Below, in pieces: positions 9,675 to 25,580 of a stretch of DNA of 37,693 nt; positions within the stretch are counted from its first letter, which is position 1; every line of letters starts with the position of its first letter. The translations under genes were made by a program, and so were the position numbers. The notes under the pieces are model-generated. The model ran no database searches. It worked only from the letters and a program-made list of their open reading frames with translations, and was not told where the DNA came from. The stretch comes from Methylobacteriaceae bacterium (GTDB taxonomy: Bacteria > Pseudomonadota > Alphaproteobacteria > Rhizobiales > Beijerinckiaceae), in contig JAFAVH010000352.1 in NCBI GenBank assembly GCA_019242655.1, forward strand, positions 1-37,693. The letters run 5' to 3'.

Positions 9675-10571
9675 ATGAAGGTTGCTGTGATGGGGGCGGG
9701 CGCCGTCGGCTGCTATTACGGCGCCATGCTGGCGCGGGCCGGCCATGAGGTCTGCCTGATCGGGCGGCCCCAGCATGTCGAGGCGATAAACGCGCGCGGC
9801 CTGATCCTCGAGACCGCCCGCTTTACCGAGACGCTGCGGGTCGGCGCGAGCACGGGAGCATCCGGCGTGTCGGGCGCAGATCTCATCCTGTTCTGCGTCA
9901 AATCAAACGACACGCTCGCTGCCGGCGAGGATATGACGCCGCACTTGAAGCGGGACGCGAGCATTCTCAGCCTGCAAAACGGCGTCGACAATGCCGAGCG
10001 TTTGCAAGCATTGCTGAAAATGCCCGTCATGCCGGTTGCCGTCTATGTTGCCACTGACATGCCGGCGCCGGGACATGTGCGTCACCATGGGCGCGGCGAG
10101 CTCGTCATCGGCCCGAACGCCGCAAGCGCACGGATCGCCGCCTGCTTTGCCGATGCTGGCATCCCCGCAGAGGTGTCGGAGAAAGTCACAGGCGCACTGT
10201 GGGCCAAGCTGATCGTCAATTGCTCCTACAACGCGCTCTCCGCAATCGCACAGCTGCCCTACGGACGGCTGGTAAAAGTGGAAGGTGTCGTCGAGATCAT
10301 GAACGACGTTATCGCTGAATGCGTCGAAGTCGCAGCTCGCCTCGGCGTTCTACTGCCGGCAGATACGATCGAAACGGTGCTCGGGATCGCCGGTTCCATG
10401 CCGAACCAATATTCGTCAACGGCGCAGGATCTCGCCCGCGGCAAGCGGACCGAGATCGATCATCTCAACGGATACGTCGTACGAAAGGCACGCGAGATCG
10501 GGATCGCGGCGCCGGCGAACCGGGCGCTTCTCGTTGCGATCAAGCTCCTCGAGAGCAGAACGCCAAATTAG
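9675..10571 (+). CDS. Ketopantoate reductase-like 2-dehydropantoate 2-reductase (ApbA/PanE family)
   Basis: This 298-residue NADPH-dependent 2-keto-acid reductase has the nucleotide-binding start MKVAVMGAGAVGCYYGAML, then FCVKSNDT, LQNGVDN and, in the helical C-terminal domain, AKLIVNCSYNALSAI, which carries the catalytic Lys and substrate Asn of PanE. I chose the ATG at 9675 because AAGGG lies just before it and the Rossmann motif then starts the protein; ATG 9663 is possible and adds MKGE. As the last gene of the plus-strand run, it is more likely a pathway dehydrogenase on a branched or hydroxylated keto acid than a biosynthetic PanE, but this is inference. Confidence 0.82.
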   Translation: MKVAVMGAGAVGCYYGAMLARAGHEVCLIGRPQHVEAINARGLILETARFTETLRVGASTGASGVSGADLILFCVKSNDTLAAGEDMTPHLKRDASILSLQNGVDNAERLQALLKMPVMPVAVYVATDMPAPGHVRHHGRGELVIGPNAASARIAACFADAGIPAEVSEKVTGALWAKLIVNCSYNALSAIAQLPYGRLVKVEGVVEIMNDVIAECVEVAARLGVLLPADTIETVLGIAGSMPNQYSSTAQDLARGKRTEIDHLNGYVVRKAREIGIAAPANRALLVAIKLLESRTPN

Positions 10572-10598
10572 CCGGCTTTCGCTTTGCCTGGCGCGAGA

Positions 10599-11342
10599 TC
10601 ACGAACAAGAATGGTCCAACAAAAACTCGCCGTGGCCTTTGCCCATGGCGCCGGGCGTATATTGATCGGCGAGAACGTAGAAGCCAGTGCCAAGTCTCGG
10701 CACCACGACCAAAGTCATGTCCTCCATTTGCCCGGGCGAGACTTGCAGAAGAGTCGCTGCGGCCTTGAAAAGATTAGTCTGGCTGAGGTCGGCCGAATCG
10801 AGCAGCATGGCCCAGTAATACCGTCCGCGAAGCGCAAATTGCAGGCGAGACCATTTGTCAGGCCGGATCGTTGAATCATGCATGCGCAGCTGCTGCGCAT
10901 AACGGCGCTGCAAGCAGTCGACGTGGATGTGCAGTTGATCCTGGCTCCGGCCGGGGCGCGAATTGACGGCTAGGCCAATGTCTGCATCCTTGAGCGGGCG
11001 CTCCGCCGCATCGATCACATATTTTCGCGCACCCCATGCATCCTGGAAATAATTTGGTGGGTCCGGAGACTGAAGCTCAGGATCTTCGATCCCCGTGATC
11101 CTTGCTGTCGGGGAGACGACGACATGTGTTTTGGCAAGCGGTGCGCGTATGGTCGCAAAGCCGCGTGTACGACCCCGATCGGTATTTACGTTGAGACAAG
11201 GAAAGGACCCGCCGGTCAGCTCGTGATTTGTGACGCAGACCTGAACCACGTTCCACAATAGGCCCCGTTCAGCCGCAAGCACCGTTCCCATCGCTGCGAG
11301 GAGCACAATGGCGGAAATCAAAACTGAATTTCTGAGCCTCAT
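10599..11342 (-). CDS. cdh: CDP-diacylglycerol diphosphatase (Cdh family, HIT-like)
   Basis: This 247-residue protein should hydrolyse CDP-diacylglycerol to CMP and phosphatidate at the inner membrane or in the periplasm. The N-terminus is a signal peptide or anchor (MRLRNSVLISAIVLLAAMG, with a possible cleavage after VLAA near residue 24). The core signature is SRPGRSQDQLHIHVDCLQ (residues 128-145), where His138 and His140 resemble the HIT-type H-x-H triad of this family. Length agrees with E. coli Cdh (about 250). It converges on the preceding gene with 27 bases between stops and looks like a single-gene unit. Confidence 0.88.
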   Translation of the reverse strand: MRLRNSVLISAIVLLAAMGTVLAAERGLLWNVVQVCVTNHELTGGSFPCLNVNTDRGRTRGFATIRAPLAKTHVVVSPTARITGIEDPELQSPDPPNYFQDAWGARKYVIDAAERPLKDADIGLAVNSRPGRSQDQLHIHVDCLQRRYAQQLRMHDSTIRPDKWSRLQFALRGRYYWAMLLDSADLSQTNLFKAAATLLQVSPGQMEDMTLVVVPRLGTGFYVLADQYTPGAMGKGHGEFLLDHSCS

Positions 11343-11536
11343 TGGACCCTAGGCGCCGGCGGCATCTGCGCCCGCGCCGGCAGAAAGCTCCGGATAGTGA
11401 GCAGAGCCGCTTCCGGAGGGGGCATTGATGCACCAGAAGAGTTGAAGCCAAATCAAGGCCAGGAGCGCCGTGCGGAGCTCAAGGCGCGTGAGAGTTGCCC
11501 TTGCGCGCATCGCTGTGCAAGCTGAGCTATGGGCGG

Positions 11537-16692: not shown

Positions 16693-18033
16693 ATGCCAAT
16701 CACCAGCCGATTTGTGGTCCGTTCTTCGATCGGACTGCTTGCCGTCGGATTCCTGACGCTCCTCGGCATTGTCGGCACGACCATTTGGCTGAACGAGCGC
16801 GCGCAATTCTATTTCAACGAAGCGATCACGGCGCGTGACGCCCGGGGCGCGGCGGTCGAGATGCGTGATGCGCTGCGAACCGCGGAGTCGAGCCAGCGCG
16901 GATACATTCTGACCGGAAACGAGATTTATCTCGCGCCCTACGATAGCGCGAGGGCTCAGGCTCAGCGGCACCTGGAGTCGCTCAACCGGTATTTTGCCAC
17001 AGATACGGAACGGCGCCCGATGCTTCGTCGGCTGACGACAATTGTCGCCGAGAAGACCGCCGAGATGGACCAATCGATTGCGCTCAAAAGCGACCAAAAG
17101 AACGAGGAGGCGTTGGCGCAGCTTCGCAGCAATCGCGGCAAGGCTCTGATGGATGAGGCCAACGTTTTTCTCTACGGATTGATCCTGTCCGCGGAAGAGC
17201 GGCTGACCGCCGGTGTCAACGAGCAGCGGGCCAATGCTGCGATGCTTCGATGGATTTCGATCATCGGCGCGTTCGTGATCGTTCTCGTCGTCGGCGGCGT
17301 AACGGTCACGGTCGTGCGATACGCACGCGAAATCGCGCAGGCACGCGATGAGGTGCGCTTGCTCAATATCAGCCTCGAGGAGCGGGTGAAGCAGCGTACG
17401 GCGGAACTCTCCCGCGCCCGCGACAGGGCGGAAGTCCTGCTTGCCGAGGTCAATCACCGCGTCGCCAACAGCCTCGCCCTCGTCGCATCGCTGGTCAAGC
17501 TGCAGTCGAACGCGGTCAAGGACGAAGCCGCGAAAAATGTGCTCGCGGAGACCGAGGGGCGCATCTACGCGGTTTCGCTCATCCACAAGCGGCTTTATTC
17601 TTCGGGCGACGTGCGCTTCGTTGCGCTCGATGAGTATCTGCCGAGCTTGCTGCAACATCTCGAGACATCGATGCGCGCCGAGGGTCATGGAGCGGCGCTG
17701 AGCTACGAGATCGAACCGCTGACACTGCGCACGGATGCCAGCATCAATCTCGGTGTTGTCGTCACCGAATGGGTCACCAACGCCTTCAAGTATGCCTATC
17801 CGGACCGCCCCGGCGAGGTGCGCGTCCGCCTGTCCGGCCAGCCCGACGGTCGCGCCGAGCTTGTTGTCGAGGATGACGGTGTTGGCCGAAGCGCCGACCC
17901 GGCAATCAAGGGCACGGGGCTTGGGACGCGGATCGTGAATGCGATGGCCAAGACCATGGCGGCGGAAATCCGCTATCTCGCGCGGCAACCTGGAACGGCA
18001 GCCCGCCTCGTGTTTTCATTGCCCTCGGACTGA
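16693..18033 (+). CDS. CHASE3-domain HisKA_2 histidine kinase
   Basis: This 446-residue sensor kinase has a membrane helix at about 10-33 and a periplasmic CHASE3-like helical sensor from about 35 to 185 that includes SSQRGYILTGNEIYL, typical of CHASE3. A second helix lies at about 187-208 and a coiled linker at 212-245. The HisKA_2 dimerisation segment LLAEVNHRVANSLALVASL has His255 as phospho-acceptor. The HATPase has its N-box at TEWVTNAFKYA (359-366), G1 at VEDDGVG (392-398) and G2 at GTGLGTRIV. HisKA_2 kinases are the type that often feed PhyR in the alphaproteobacterial general stress response. A ligand-binding protein gene follows 63 bases downstream. Confidence 0.88.
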   Translation: MPITSRFVVRSSIGLLAVGFLTLLGIVGTTIWLNERAQFYFNEAITARDARGAAVEMRDALRTAESSQRGYILTGNEIYLAPYDSARAQAQRHLESLNRYFATDTERRPMLRRLTTIVAEKTAEMDQSIALKSDQKNEEALAQLRSNRGKALMDEANVFLYGLILSAEERLTAGVNEQRANAAMLRWISIIGAFVIVLVVGGVTVTVVRYAREIAQARDEVRLLNISLEERVKQRTAELSRARDRAEVLLAEVNHRVANSLALVASLVKLQSNAVKDEAAKNVLAETEGRIYAVSLIHKRLYSSGDVRFVALDEYLPSLLQHLETSMRAEGHGAALSYEIEPLTLRTDASINLGVVVTEWVTNAFKYAYPDRPGEVRVRLSGQPDGRAELVVEDDGVGRSADPAIKGTGLGTRIVNAMAKTMAAEIRYLARQPGTAARLVFSLPSD

Positions 18034-18096
18034 CAAGGCGGGATCAACCAGCTGAGACGAGAAGAGCGCACCAAGGCCAGTCGAACCAGAGCAGGC

Positions 18097-19215
18097 ATGG
18101 CTGCTCTGCTGCTGGCCGCCTGCCTCTCCGTTGCGCCGACCATTGCGAGCGTCGCTGAAGACGGACCGCCCGGCATCGTCGCGCCGAAAATATTGCCGCC
18201 GTTCGATGAAGCTGCTGCAACGTGTGCCGCTCCGCCAGGCCTGCGGAAAGTGTTGGCATTCGCGCAAGACAATGAGCGCGAATTCATGCAGGGCGTCGGG
18301 CGCGGATTGGCGGCGGCGGCGCGAGACCGCGGACTTGCCTACGAAGTATCGCTCGCCGCAAACGATCCGCGGAAGATGATCGAGCAGGTGCAAGCGATGC
18401 TCACTGCGAAAACGGGCGCGGTCGTTGCCGCACCTGTCGATCCGCCCTCGCTCAGCCGCAGCCTGCAGCAATTGATCTGGGCAGGCGCCTTTGTCGGCAC
18501 GGTGGTGCCGCCGCCCGCCATCACGCTGTTGAACGCGCCGCAATATCTGACCGGAAAAGCGCTTGGCGATGCGGCGGCGACCTACATTCGCACGCACCTC
18601 AAAGGCAAAGCCAAGGTCGTGCTGCTGACGCACGACAGTCTGCAGTTCCTCGCCCCGCGCTTCGTCGCCATGCGCGATTCCCTGAGGGACATGTCCGGCG
18701 TCACGATCGTCGCCGACATTTCGCCGGCGATGGTGAACAAGGCGGGCGGCCTTGCCATGATGCGCACGATCCTCCTCGCGCAGCCGAACGTCGATGTCGT
18801 GCTCGGCGCCGATACGGTGGTGCTCGGCGCACTCGCGGCGCTGCGCGAGGCGGGCAAGGCGCGCGACGATCAGTTCCTCGGCGGCATTGACGGAGAGCCC
18901 GAAGCCGTCGAGGAAATAAAAAAGCATGGCCCCTACAAGGCCAGTATCAGCCTAGCCTCGCCGGTGTTCGGCTATGCGCTCGGCCAGAACGGCGCCGATT
19001 GGCTTGACGGAAAAAGCGTTCCGCAGGCGATGGATATTCTACCGAAAGCGCTGACGGCCGAGAACATCGCTCAGTACGAAGCCGATCTCGCCGATCCCGC
19101 AGCTGTTTATCGCGATCCGGCACGCCGCGCTTCTTATCTCAAGATGTATGGCAACATCTGCTTCGATACGCGCGACAATTACCTGAATTTTCCGTGGTCG
19201 TCGGAGCGGAAGTGA
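18097..19215 (+). CDS. Sugar-type periplasmic binding protein (Peripla_BP_4-like), possible lipoprotein
   Basis: This 372-residue protein resembles the ribose/galactose class of solute-binding proteins: an FAQDNEREFMQGVGRGLAAAARDRG lead helix, VVAAPVDPPSLSRSLQQLIWAG, a hinge region around VVLLTHDSLQFLAPRF, and LGGIDGEPEAVEEIKKHG near 265. The N-terminus contains LLAAC, a plausible lipobox, but as read from ATG 18097 there are no positive residues before the hydrophobic core. The frame is open back to 18034 just after the kinase stop, and a CTG at 18052 would add the basic lead LRREERTKASR. No ABC permease or ATPase adjoins it, so a sensory role with the upstream kinase is more likely than transport. 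Confidence 0.75.
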   Translation: MAALLLAACLSVAPTIASVAEDGPPGIVAPKILPPFDEAAATCAAPPGLRKVLAFAQDNEREFMQGVGRGLAAAARDRGLAYEVSLAANDPRKMIEQVQAMLTAKTGAVVAAPVDPPSLSRSLQQLIWAGAFVGTVVPPPAITLLNAPQYLTGKALGDAAATYIRTHLKGKAKVVLLTHDSLQFLAPRFVAMRDSLRDMSGVTIVADISPAMVNKAGGLAMMRTILLAQPNVDVVLGADTVVLGALAALREAGKARDDQFLGGIDGEPEAVEEIKKHGPYKASISLASPVFGYALGQNGADWLDGKSVPQAMDILPKALTAENIAQYEADLADPAAVYRDPARRASYLKMYGNICFDTRDNYLNFPWSSERK

Positions 19216-19680: not shown

Positions 19681-20055
19681 TCACGCGCTGTGTAGCCGCG
19701 AGGCGATAAACCGCTTCACTTCGTCCGGCCGCCAGGGCTTTGCCACGAACTTGGCTTTGCCGGGAAGCGCGGACACGGGAGGCGGCGCTCCCCCTGACGT
19801 GACCAGAATTCCGATCCATGGCCAACGACGGCTGACAATGCGTGCGAGTTCGGCACCGTCCGTTTCGCTCGCCATCATCAGATCGGTGAAAATCACCGCG
19901 ACGTGTTCCGCGTGGTCCTGAAGCGCTCTCAGAGCTTCATTGCGGCTGGTCGCGACTTCGCAGGTGCAACCAAGCTCTTCCTCGATCAGTATAATTGCGA
20001 CAGCGCGCACGAGCGGCTCGTCTTCGACAATGAGCACGTTATTGCGCCTTTGCAT
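19681..20055 (-). CDS. Single-domain response regulator (CheY-like receiver)
   Basis: This 124-residue protein is a lone receiver domain. The acidic pocket is EDE (residues 11-13), the phospho-acceptor is Asp58 in VIFTDLMM, the switch Thr/Ser is in LVTSGG (about 85-89), and the invariant Lys106 is in FVAKPW. No output domain is present, so it must act by protein interaction or as a phosphate sink. It lies 24 bases downstream of the NepR-like gene on the same strand and probably shares its transcript. Stand-alone receivers modulate general-stress kinases in several Alphaproteobacteria, which fits the HisKA_2 kinase nearby; this link is inference. Confidence 0.88.
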   Translation of the reverse strand: MQRRNNVLIVEDEPLVRAVAIILIEEELGCTCEVATSRNEALRALQDHAEHVAVIFTDLMMASETDGAELARIVSRRWPWIGILVTSGGAPPPVSALPGKAKFVAKPWRPDEVKRFIASRLHSA

Positions 20056-20079
20056 GCTAAGGCCAGCAAATCGATTCAG

Positions 20080-20268
20080 TCAGCCGCGTTTTTCCTGCCG
20101 GAATTCACGCAGCAGCGTCGAAAGCCTTTCCGACGGATAATCCTGCGGTTCATAGATAGCTCTCAGACCAGCCTTGATGCCGTCTGTCGGCTTTGCGTGA
20201 TGCACCTCGCCTTTCATGGCGGGTCCCCGGGATAGGGCGTCGACTGGACGGCGGCGGCGCTGGATCAT
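20080..20268 (-). CDS. NepR-like small protein (candidate anti-sigma factor)
   Basis: This 62-residue reading begins MIQRRRR and ends LLREFRQEKRG. Residues 29-56 read DGIKAGLRAIYE, then YPSERLSTLLREF. They resemble the two NepR helices (G-x-GLR-x-x-Y, then P-x-x-L-x-x-LL), with a linker about two residues shorter. NepR proteins hold EcfG sigma factors inactive until phosphorylated PhyR removes them. The frame is open upstream for another 117 codons, but the ATG at 20268 fits best: an EcfG-like promoter ends about 30 bases before it and a GAG element sits at ribosome-binding distance. No EcfG or PhyR gene is in the window. The family call rests on eye alignment only. Confidence 0.5.
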   Translation of the reverse strand: MIQRRRRPVDALSRGPAMKGEVHHAKPTDGIKAGLRAIYEPQDYPSERLSTLLREFRQEKRG

Positions 20269-20299
20269 GGCAATCTCGTTCAAATTCTGCGCGGTGTAA

Positions 20300-20325
20300 A
20301 ACTGCCTGCCCGGAGGGAACGTTCC
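20300..20325 (-). promoter_or_regulatory. EcfG (general stress sigma)-type promoter
   Basis: Read on the minus strand, GGAAC (20325-20321) is followed after 18 bases by GTT (20302-20300), that is GGAAC-N19-TT. Known alphaproteobacterial EcfG/RpoE2 promoters follow GGAAC-N18/19-TT. The predicted transcript start near 20292 leaves a leader of about 25 bases before ATG 20268. The -35 is half of a perfect 12-base palindrome, GGGAACGTTCCC, at 20315-20326. Confidence 0.55.
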
Positions 20326-20359
20326 CACGGCCAAGCTACGCTGGACTTCTAAATTCCGT

Positions 20360-21957: not shown

Positions 21958-23181
21958 ATGGTCACAAAGGCAGAGAACGAACTTCTGTCCCGCGTAACCG
22001 GCGACGCTCCGATGGGCAAAATGTTGCGCCAGCATTACTGGTTGCCTGCCGTCCTGTCCGTGCGCGTCAAATATGGACAAGCGCCGACGAAGGTGCGGCT
22101 GTTTGGCGAGAACTTTATCGCCTTCCGCGGCGAGGACGGGAAGGTCGGCTTCATGGAGGAAGCCTGCCCGCATCGTGGAGCGTCACTTGCTTTGGGCCGC
22201 GTCGAAGGTTGCGCGGTTCAATGCTTGTTTCATGGATGGAAGATTTCATCCGACGGGCACGTCGTCGATGTTCCAAACGAGCCGAACCGGCCGGCGGAAT
22301 TTGCGAAGACCGTCAAGGTACGCGCCTACCCTTCCCGCGAAGGCGCCGGCATCATCTGGGTCTGGCTCGGAGAGGGAGAGGCGCCGCCGTGCCCCGACTT
22401 CGAATGGATGGATTTGCCGCCGGAGCAGGTTTACTCTGCCGGCATCGAACTGAACGCCAATTGGCTGCAAGGCGTGGAAGCGACGATCGATTCGTCGCAT
22501 GTCGCGCTGCTTCACACGAGCTGGACGACAACATCCGCCACCGATTTCGGGGCGACGCGCGAGAACACGGCCGTAAACTACGAGTTCGAGAAGAAGCCCT
22601 ACGGTTTTCGCGCGGCGGCGCTACGTGCGGCGCCCGACGGCTCCTGTGTGGCGCGCGTCACCGAGTTCGTCATGCCGTACTATGGCTTGATCCCGCCGAT
22701 CTTCACCGGTCCGAAACAGGATCGCATCGCCATCATCGCCGTGCCGATCGACGACGAGAACCTTATCCAGTGGTACATCTACTACAATCCGGAGAAGCCG
22801 GTTGACTCGATGAAGCGAACGCAGCGCGCCAATCAATGGCCGATGGCCGGCGGACTGCCAGGCGATCGGTCGAATAATTGGGGCCAGAACCGCGACGTGA
22901 TGGGCGCCGGCAACAATTCCGGCTTCTTCGAAATCGTCATCGAGGATTTCGTCGTCATGGTCAGCATGGGTCCGATCGTCGACCGAAGCAAAGAGTACCT
23001 TTGCTCGAGCGATCAGGCCATCATCCGCGTGCGGCGGATGCTCTTGGAAGAGGTGAAGGCGTTCATGGCGGGCAAGGCGCCAAAAAGCGCGCAAACGCCT
23101 GCGATGTCTTACCAGGGCGTGCGCGCCGTTGGCGGCCGGTTGCCGTCGACCTCAGACGATTGGCGACAGATCGCGGCTTAG
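21958..23181 (+). CDS. Rieske aromatic-ring-hydroxylating oxygenase, large subunit (phthalate 4,5-dioxygenase-like)
   Basis: This 407-residue oxygenase would insert oxygen into an aromatic or related substrate using electrons from the Rieske ferredoxin. The Rieske cluster ligands are C70-P-H72 and C89-x2-H92. The mononuclear iron site follows in NWLQGVEATIDSSHVALLH, with Asp178, His181 and His186. The opening AENELLSRVTGDAPMGKMLR is typical of phthalate- and vanillate-type single-subunit (alpha-only) oxygenases, and no beta-subunit gene is present. GGGGGTGG precedes the ATG at 21958. Substrates of this group include phthalates, vanillate, phenoxybenzoates and other aromatic acids; which one applies is unknown. 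Confidence 0.9.
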   Translation: MVTKAENELLSRVTGDAPMGKMLRQHYWLPAVLSVRVKYGQAPTKVRLFGENFIAFRGEDGKVGFMEEACPHRGASLALGRVEGCAVQCLFHGWKISSDGHVVDVPNEPNRPAEFAKTVKVRAYPSREGAGIIWVWLGEGEAPPCPDFEWMDLPPEQVYSAGIELNANWLQGVEATIDSSHVALLHTSWTTTSATDFGATRENTAVNYEFEKKPYGFRAAALRAAPDGSCVARVTEFVMPYYGLIPPIFTGPKQDRIAIIAVPIDDENLIQWYIYYNPEKPVDSMKRTQRANQWPMAGGLPGDRSNNWGQNRDVMGAGNNSGFFEIVIEDFVVMVSMGPIVDRSKEYLCSSDQAIIRVRRMLLEEVKAFMAGKAPKSAQTPAMSYQGVRAVGGRLPSTSDDWRQIAA

Positions 23182-23238
23182 CGAAACAGTCGCGCAAGAG
23201 CTCTGCCGTTCTCGCACGGCGCCGGGAGTAAAGGCACC

Positions 23239-23562
23239 ATGCCAGATTGGACGCACGTTTGCGCCGCTTCGAAAGTAGAGGAAGGCGAACCGTTCGGCGT
23301 CAAGCTGACGGAGGAGCTTCGCATCGCCGTATACCGTGTCGATGACGCGATCTACGCCACGAACGATGTCTGTCCGCATGCCTTCGCTCTTTTGTCGACG
23401 GGCTTTCTGGATGGTCATCAGATCGAATGCCCGCTTCATGGAGCAATATTCGATGTGAGGACGGGCAAGTGCCATGTTGCCACCTACGACGATGTCCGCG
23501 CCTACAAAGCCGAGGTCCGCGACGGTGACGTCTTCGTCGACCTGGACTCAACGTCGTCTTGA
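23239..23562 (+). CDS. Rieske [2Fe-2S] ferredoxin
   Basis: This 107-residue electron carrier has cluster ligands C45-P-H47 and C64-x2-H67 in NDVCPHAFALLS and ECPLHGAIFD. It resembles the ferredoxins of multicomponent dioxygenases (BphF/NdoA/HcaC type). It would pass electrons from the reductase encoded next to the oxygenase encoded before. Its stop overlaps the TTG start of the reductase by four bases (TTGA), so the two are translationally coupled. Confidence 0.92.
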   Translation: MPDWTHVCAASKVEEGEPFGVKLTEELRIAVYRVDDAIYATNDVCPHAFALLSTGFLDGHQIECPLHGAIFDVRTGKCHVATYDDVRAYKAEVRDGDVFVDLDSTSS

Positions 23563-24806
23563 GTGGACTTGTCGTTATCGGCGGCTCCTACGCCGGGTTG
23601 ACAACGGCATCCGCGGCGCGCGAGTCAGGTTATCTCGAGCCGATCACGATCATCGGCAATGAAGCGCATCTCCCTTATCAAAGACCTCCATTGTCGAAAG
23701 CGTTTCTGTTGGGCGATGCCGACGAGCAGAGCCTGCTGATCCGCGCCGCGCGTTTCTTCGTGGACCAGAATATTGATGTTCGGCTTGGCACGTCCGTGAC
23801 TGGAGTCGACCGCCGAGCCAAACGCGTCGAATTGTCGGACGGACGATCTCTCACCTACGACGCACTGGCCTTTAGCACGGGATCGAGAGCGCGGCGCCTC
23901 GACATTCCCGGTGCGACTCTTTCCGGTATTTGCTATCTCCGCTCGCTCGGCGACGCCGTGGAATTGCGCGATCGCTTGGCAGCCGCAAAGGACGTCGTCG
24001 TTATCGGCGGCGGCTTCATCGGATTGGAGGTAGCGGCCTCGGCACGCCACCTCGGCAAGACCGTGACGGTGATCGAAAGCGCGGCGCGCCTTCTGGAGCG
24101 GGCGGTGACGCCGCTGATAGCAGACTACCTTTTGCGGGAGCACCAGGCAAAAGGCGTTCGCGTCCATTTCGACGAAACGGTGCGGGAATTCGCCGGTGAC
24201 GGAGTAAAGGTTTCATCGGTCATTCTGCGAAGCAACGAACGGATTGCAGCCGATCTTGTTCTGATCGGGATCGGCGGACTACCGAACGATGACGTCGCGC
24301 GCGCCGCCGGGCTCACCTGTACAAATGGCATTGTCGTCGACGACTTCGGACGCAGCCGCGACGACGCGTGCATTTCTGCCGCCGGCGACTGCGCAAACCA
24401 TCACAGCGGATTTGCGCGCGGCTGGATCCGGCTCGAATCCGTTCAGAACGCGCAGGATCAGGCGCGCATTACGGGCTCGACGATCGCCGGGCAGGAGCGG
24501 CCCTATAACAGCGTGCCTTTGTTCTGGTCGGACCAATACGATACGAAACTTCAGATGGTCGGCTTTTCCAAAGGACATGATCGCTTCGCGATGCGCGGTC
24601 GTCCCGACGATGGTCAGTTCTCGGTCTTCTACTACCGGACCGGGGAGCTCATCGCCGTCGACAGTGTCAACAGACCTGCCGACCAGCTGATTGCGAAACG
24701 CCTGCTCGCGGCGGGACTTTCTCCTGGCATCGATCAGGTCGGCGATATGTCGTTCGACTTCAAAACGTTCCTGAAGCGAGGCATCGAGAAAAGCGCTGCG
24801 CGCTAG
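23559..24806 (+). CDS. NAD(P)H-dependent FAD ferredoxin reductase
   Basis: This 415-residue flavoprotein is of the glutathione-reductase-like ferredoxin reductase type (BphG/HcaD/putidaredoxin reductase). The FAD Rossmann motif VVIGGSYAGLTTA is at residues 5-17, the PPLSKAFLLG segment near 45, the NAD-binding VVIGGGFIGLEVAASAR near 148, and the second FAD contact ISAAGDCAN near 272. The C-terminal domain contains FWSDQYDTKLQMVG, as usual in the family. The start is an in-frame TTG overlapping the ferredoxin stop. It completes a three-component oxygenase system. Its TAG stop overlaps the convergent MarR stop. Confidence 0.9.
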   Translation: MSGLVVIGGSYAGLTTASAARESGYLEPITIIGNEAHLPYQRPPLSKAFLLGDADEQSLLIRAARFFVDQNIDVRLGTSVTGVDRRAKRVELSDGRSLTYDALAFSTGSRARRLDIPGATLSGICYLRSLGDAVELRDRLAAAKDVVVIGGGFIGLEVAASARHLGKTVTVIESAARLLERAVTPLIADYLLREHQAKGVRVHFDETVREFAGDGVKVSSVILRSNERIAADLVLIGIGGLPNDDVARAAGLTCTNGIVVDDFGRSRDDACISAAGDCANHHSGFARGWIRLESVQNAQDQARITGSTIAGQERPYNSVPLFWSDQYDTKLQMVGFSKGHDRFAMRGRPDDGQFSVFYYRTGELIAVDSVNRPADQLIAKRLLAAGLSPGIDQVGDMSFDFKTFLKRGIEKSAAR

Positions 24807-25444
24807 CGACCCGTCCGCCGTCGCGGGCGCAGAAGCTTGGCCGGCCGCGCGCCCGTCACGGCCGAACCCGTTGCCCGCGTTTTCCGCTGTCCGTGCTTCG
24901 CCAAAGCCGAGACGTTGAGCAGTTTACGAAAGCCGCGATCCATGACCGCAATTTCGTTCTGCGTCAGGCCACTTTCCAGCAAGACGTGCTTCGTGATCCG
25001 CGCAATCTCCGCAATGCCGCGGTCGGCGACGCTGAGACCCGAACCGGTCAGTCGTACAAGTTCGGACCGCCCGTCATCGCTTGCCGAGGTTCGGACGATC
25101 AAACCGGCGTCCTGCAATTTCGCGACGCGTTTGGTCATCGCCCCGGATGTGACGAGGAGGGTTCGAAACAGATCGGTCGGACGAAGTTCATAAGGCTTGC
25201 CCGCGCGGCGCAATGCGAGAAGAACCAGAAGCTCGCCCGTGTGGATGCCGATCGCTTTAGAGATTGCCTTCACGCGCGCCTCGTGAAGCTGGTTCGCCCG
25301 TTCCATGCGCAGGAGAGTGCAGGCCATTCGCAAGTCGAGGTCGGGACGCTCTGCGAGCCAGGCGGACTCTATGTCGTCGTAAAGCCTCTCGGGCCGCAAT
25401 CGCTTCGCCGGCACGATGGTTTTCCGTCCTGCTCGCTTTGCCAT
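24803..25444 (-). CDS. MarR-family transcriptional regulator
   Basis: This 213-residue protein has a winged-helix core: LHEARVKAISKAIGIHTGELLVLLALRRAG, then the recognition region LFRTLLVTSGAMTKRVAKLQDAGLI, then the wing RTSASDDGRSELVRLTGSG. These are in MarR order, flanked by basic tails (KRAGRKTIVPAKRLRPERL at the N-terminus and an Arg-rich C-terminus). MarR proteins of catabolic clusters usually repress until they bind the substrate or an intermediate. The start at 25444 is preceded by GGGACAGAG; an upstream frame to 25501 is less likely. It probably controls the oxygenase genes and the divergent binding-protein gene through the shared inverted repeat. Confidence 0.87.
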   Translation of the reverse strand: MAKRAGRKTIVPAKRLRPERLYDDIESAWLAERPDLDLRMACTLLRMERANQLHEARVKAISKAIGIHTGELLVLLALRRAGKPYELRPTDLFRTLLVTSGAMTKRVAKLQDAGLIVRTSASDDGRSELVRLTGSGLSVADRGIAEIARITKHVLLESGLTQNEIAVMDRGFRKLLNVSALAKHGQRKTRATGSAVTGARPAKLLRPRRRTGR

Positions 25445-25580
25445 CTCTGTCCCGCTTACACCGCCCTTTGTTGGCGCTCTAATCGCCGCTCGATCGAGCA
25501 ATTAGCACCGGTCGGTCCAGAGAAACTAGCGCCGACGGGAATTTTTACACCGGTTCCCCGGCGCCGAACAAAAAGAACCG

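Follow-up and report, generated by a model that had tools for sequence, protein, structure and literature searches.

The minus strand of the analysed window, i.e. the whole stretch of 37,693 nucleotides from a Methylobacteriaceae bacterium, may carry a two-gene unit in which a very diverged NepR-like protein is followed by a single-domain receiver and which is possibly switched by EcfG; we give this reading a probability of about 0.48. Relatives do have units of this type, both as tandem gene pairs and as fused proteins, and this NepR-receiver arrangement is real and apparently new to the literature. The original prediction of a NepR-like protein partnered with a lone receiver is partly supported: the proposed kind of module occurs in relatives, and the window locus is a possible instance of it. 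As an example of the module the window locus is weak; as a pointer to the arrangement in relatives it is useful.

Table 1 Features of the window and fusion loci in relatives
Feature	Position or loci	Strand or frame	Basis
Single-domain response regulator (receiver), AKPWRP end motif	19681-20055	minus	PF00072, motif positions
62-codon frame, candidate divergent NepR-like protein	20080-20268	minus	ORF reading, codon use, pattern
EcfG-type promoter-like site GGAAC-N17-AGTT, candidate only	20300-20325	minus	pattern match
CHASE3 / HisKA_2 histidine kinase, HRVAN (HRXXN) phospho-acceptor motif at residue 255	16693-18033	plus	profiles, motif
NepR-like-receiver fusions of genus g8	L124-L153, L155, L164-L168	one open frame	PF18557 + PF00072

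The receiver gene encodes a genuine single-domain response regulator. Its product matches PF00072 over residues 7-115 of 124 (5.6e-12, 46.3 bits), has no output domain, and on inspection of the motif positions retains an intact catalytic set consisting of the acidic pair, the FTD phospho-acceptor D58, the T/S residue and K106. The gap between the small frame and the receiver gene is 24 bases (20056-20079), as predicted. The histidine kinase on the plus strand scores 7.4e-25 for CHASE3 and 1.3e-21 for HisKA_2, and its C-terminal core reaches 122 bits against the PhyK model, under the model cut-off of 750. With its CHASE3-HisKA_2 architecture and HRVAN motif it belongs to the kinase type that feeds PhyR, and its neighbourhood alone makes it a possible input kinase for the receiver. 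The kinase gene is followed 63 bases later by a gene for a lone Peripla_BP_4 sugar-binding-type protein (16693-19215 together), a possible sensor pair. Elsewhere in the window, genes for a Rieske oxygenase, a Rieske ferredoxin and a ferredoxin reductase lie consecutively at 21958-24806, and a MarR-type regulator is encoded at 24803-25501 on the strand opposite to this gene row.

The predicted 62-residue frame was confirmed on the minus strand, where its product reads MIQRRRRPVDALSRGPAMKGEVHHAKPTDGIKAGLRAIYEPQDYPSERLSTLLREFRQEKRG (62 aa). There is no stop within its 62 codons, and its codon use (0.12 nats/codon) is coding-like and the same as that of the receiver gene. Because about 3 of some 137 other nearby non-genic frames also reach 0.12 nats/codon, codon use supports the frame as a gene only to a modest degree. 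An ATG at 20217, preceded by GGGGA, lies inside the frame and would give a 45-aa form; it is as good a start as the upstream ATG. The palindrome GGAACGTTCC was considered as a candidate operator.

The small frame contains a skeleton of L35-R36-x-x-Y39, P45 and L52-L53 with a leucine-rich second helix (residues 46-61). An AlphaFold single-sequence model placed helices at 27-38 and 46-61 with low confidence (pLDDT 65). In S. melonis NepR and NepR2, alanine mutants of the Leu and Tyr/Phe at equivalent spacing lost or weakened function (PMC6599016), and L35 and Y39 of the small frame are the residues at these tested positions. The near-invariant IG and PVPDR of NepR are missing, the alignment placing GI against IG and YPSERL against VPDRF, and a three-residue alignment gap leaves the linker three residues short. 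The pattern [LIVM][RKQA]xx[YF]..P..LL fits 41/41 profile-identified NepRs and 0 of ~3,060 other frames of 45-120 aa, taken from the fetched loci and from the window (every other frame of it), but these figures flatter the small frame because the pattern was composed after the frame had been seen. In a local-alignment test, which is fairer than the pattern, the small frame came 8th among 3,061 and tied with another frame in the window, and 2-3 of 500 shuffled versions of it aligned as well to the NepR set.

By contrast with the pattern, all NepR profiles were negative for the small frame. A PF18557 search (curated cut-off 25.7 bits) of the whole genome to which the window belongs left the frame unmatched at E<=10, hmmscan at E<=1 gave no NepR match, and neither Pfam nor NCBIfam found anything in it. 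Against a profile derived from 23 NepR sequences of related genomes the frame scored 0.3 bits, a value exceeded by 79/2000 shuffled versions, and a profile of receiver-linked NepR-like sequences was likewise negative. Nor was the frame found to be conserved: there was no convincing homologue in 60 relatives and none in 248 genomes of the family, the sole same-genus genome included, none among the 84,980 species covered by a seed scan, none in plasmids, and no match in a PDB sequence search. Hits obtained with the single sequence proved, once read, to be chance matches to unrelated frames, either rich in arginine or low in score; the best of them, L009, aligned only to the N-terminal stretch and had no adjoining receiver. 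Synteny within the same genus was limited to short patches, with no conserved locus. In total, of the resemblance originally proposed, the LRxxY...P...LL residues and the two predicted helices stand, while the expected NepR profile match and conservation among relatives failed to appear, two outcomes that the original prediction had named as refuting it. We put the odds that the small frame is truly NepR-like at about even.

Upstream of the small frame, GGAAC-N17-AGTT reads from 20325 to 20300 on the minus strand and is identical to the GGAAC-N19-TT element of the original prediction. The predicted transcript start, ~7 bases past the -10, falls near 20293 and gives a 25-base leader before the ATG, in agreement with the ~25 bases proposed. 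The site has one -10 mismatch (AGTT) to the EcfG consensus GGAAC-N16/17-CGTT. Chance alone would give 1.54 occurrences of GGAAC-N16/17-NGTT in the window, where 2 are present, a count that is not significant alone; from the window rate, a single upstream region of ~160 bases would have about a 0.3% chance of containing the pattern on the right strand. The genome's own nepR-ecfG operon is preceded by GGAAC-N16-AGTT, i.e. it also has an AGTT -10. The right location of the site and the -10 shared with the genome's own nepR are suggestive of EcfG control, no more. The standard nepR of this genome scores 51.7 bits with PF18557 and overlaps ecfG on another contig (C356, near 10300-11355). No sequence in the genome exceeded the cut-off of the phyR model; as the nepR contig breaks off next to that gene and assembly completeness is 93%, this result does not show that phyR is absent.

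Among 52 loci of homologues of the window receiver, 7 had a NepR(-like) gene within 1.5 kb, compared with ~0.05 expected by arithmetic from chance placement. In G060, a NepR scoring 34.4 bits, over the Pfam cut-off, ends ~30 bases before a lone receiver; this tandem pair (L109, 1105-1848, and L162) has the gene order of the window pair and almost equal spacing. On the Microvirga ossetica plasmid NZ_CP016620.1 (L154, 3938-4573), a 63-aa NepR-like protein is followed by a receiver frame that is truncated and lacks its N-terminal part. This pair is annotated merely as a hypothetical protein and a response regulator. The order is reversed in G008 and G170, where the receiver precedes the NepR-like gene, and in G032 and G206 the two genes face each other.

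In at least 53 of the 59 species sampled from genus g8, on a count of rows spanning almost the entire query, the receiver has a NepR-like domain joined in frame to its N terminus. The fused domains score ~20-22 bits with PF18557, under the cut-off, at E ~1e-4, and the proteins also match PF00072. The genus is probably Methylobacterium, because the fusion has a 58% full-length match in M. bullatum and because the nepR of G008 matches the same M. bullatum record at 98%. Among 348 genomes of the order, and at the threshold used, the fusion was confined to this genus. A fused NepR-like domain at L106 (G262, 1450-2019) scores only ~4 bits with the profile; this degraded copy shows that receiver-linked NepR domains can decay. 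A structure search with the fused protein returned receivers only, a result given no weight here because the NepR part of the protein is modelled at low confidence. Genomes of family f1, e.g. G226, G253, G255 and G262, have up to 8-11 matches each to the receiver-linked NepR(-like) profile. In the accessible parts of the open-licence literature, we found neither a fusion nor a pairing of NepR with a receiver described; the papers deal with paralogues of NepR, with EcfG proteins of Methylobacterium that have a NepR-like extension at the N terminus, and with lone receivers of the pathway.

In a receiver tree based on 110 alignment columns, one part with support 89/88 contained 18/20 NepR-linked receivers, and in the best tree the window receiver lay outside it. 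Its nearest relatives there, including those of the same genus, have no adjoining NepR. With gappy rows removed, forcing the window receiver into the linked clade cost 7 log units and was not rejected (AU p 0.195). Among the upstream frames of the receiver's closest homologues, inspected by eye and by pattern, none was NepR-like outside the linked clade.

These data bear on two other explanations of the window locus. The receiver could be an ordinary lone CheY-like phosphate shuttle from the large, fast-evolving alphaproteobacterial set, and the upstream frame a non-gene or an unrelated orphan small gene whose resemblance to NepR is a chance two-helix match. The uniformly negative NepR profiles, the lack of a homologue of the small frame in every genome searched, its modest codon bias, the chance-level frequency of the promoter-like pattern in the window and the nearest receivers in the tree without an adjoining NepR all fit such a match, yet the complete pattern is absent from the ~3,060 other small frames and the frame sits immediately before a lone receiver, with the same orientation and spacing as the genuine pair in G060. 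We consider this explanation a serious one, at somewhat short of even odds. Alternatively, the small frame could be the degraded, non-functional remnant of a former nepR paralogue beside a receiver recruited elsewhere. A remnant would account for motif residues kept after the profile signal has gone and for the deletion in the linker, and NepR-like partners visibly decay in relatives, as in the fused copy at L106; in Microvirga ossetica it is the receiver frame that has been truncated. Against a remnant, all 62 codons are open with coding-like codon use, and L35, R36 and Y39 are all retained; we regard it as very unlikely.

If the window does carry a diverged NepR-like protein and its receiver as a unit, active EcfG would cause the two genes to be transcribed. 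The NepR-like protein, through helix 1 with L35/Y39 and helix 2 after P45, would then bind either EcfG or the sigma-like domain of PhyR and so damp the general stress response, an effect that NepR2 and META2_0735 have elsewhere; for a NepR relative, such damping would be the likeliest role. An HRXXN-type kinase could phosphorylate the receiver, which in its phosphorylated form might control binding by the NepR-like protein or serve as a phosphate shuttle or sink like SdrG in Sphingomonas. Of all these steps, the partnership with the receiver is the least certain; we infer that the receiver may control the small protein because NepR-like domains are fused to, or in tandem with, receivers in relatives. 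More broadly, the window locus could be an orphan, fast-evolving member of an undescribed stress module in which a NepR-like domain, in tandem with or fused to a dedicated receiver, is run by that receiver instead of PhyR, and in which each such receiver gains direct access to EcfG or PhyR. We think it rather unlikely that the locus belongs to such a module.

In the textbook circuit, the receiver and the sigma mimic are joined in one protein, PhyR, and NepR plays a passive part. If a NepR-like domain were coupled directly to a receiver, phosphorylation would have a second, inverted route by which to command EcfG. Such coupling would also help to explain why several NepR paralogues, which in the one species tested do not bind EcfG, are found in many species of the family. 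The idea is directly testable, since most of the species sampled in one genus have the fusion.

Compared with NepR as defined by PF18557, the product of the small frame lacks a profile score as well as IG and PVPDR, has a shorter linker and is not encoded beside ecfG/phyR; it shares with NepR the small acidic-basic character, the two predicted helices with LRxxY in the first and P then LL in the second, and a candidate EcfG-like promoter site upstream. The NepR-like domains of the g8 fusions and the G060 pair also lie N-terminal to or upstream of a receiver, and these receivers end in PKPWR; however, those domains are detectable by profile (PF18557 ~20-34 bits), unlike that of the window, and the window receiver lies outside their clade in the best tree.

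EcfG-driven NepR paralogues act as negative feedback in Methylobacterium extorquens (PMC4814048) and Sphingomonas melonis (PMC6599016), where META2p0735 and NepR2, respectively, are EcfG-induced NepR-type proteins that bind PhyR (or EcfG). META2p0735 is one of three published NepR homologues of M. extorquens, the others being META1p1275 and META1p2700. The idea of a feedback module is sound as a type because this feedback is already published and because the modules exist in relatives. Sequence comparison was enough to identify NepR2 and MexAM1_META2p0735, which then underwent laboratory tests, and the available text of these papers describes no receiver partner; the proposed unit would resemble them in having an extra NepR-type protein, an EcfG-type promoter and a proposed PhyR-binding negative feedback (PMC6599016, PMC4814048). 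Similarly, the single-domain receivers SdrG and MrrA relay phosphate in the stress pathway (PMC6599016, PMC5964349). The window receiver, whose own role in that pathway would be hypothetical, resembles them in standing alone, in having all the catalytic residues and in coming from an organism that has HRXXN kinases.
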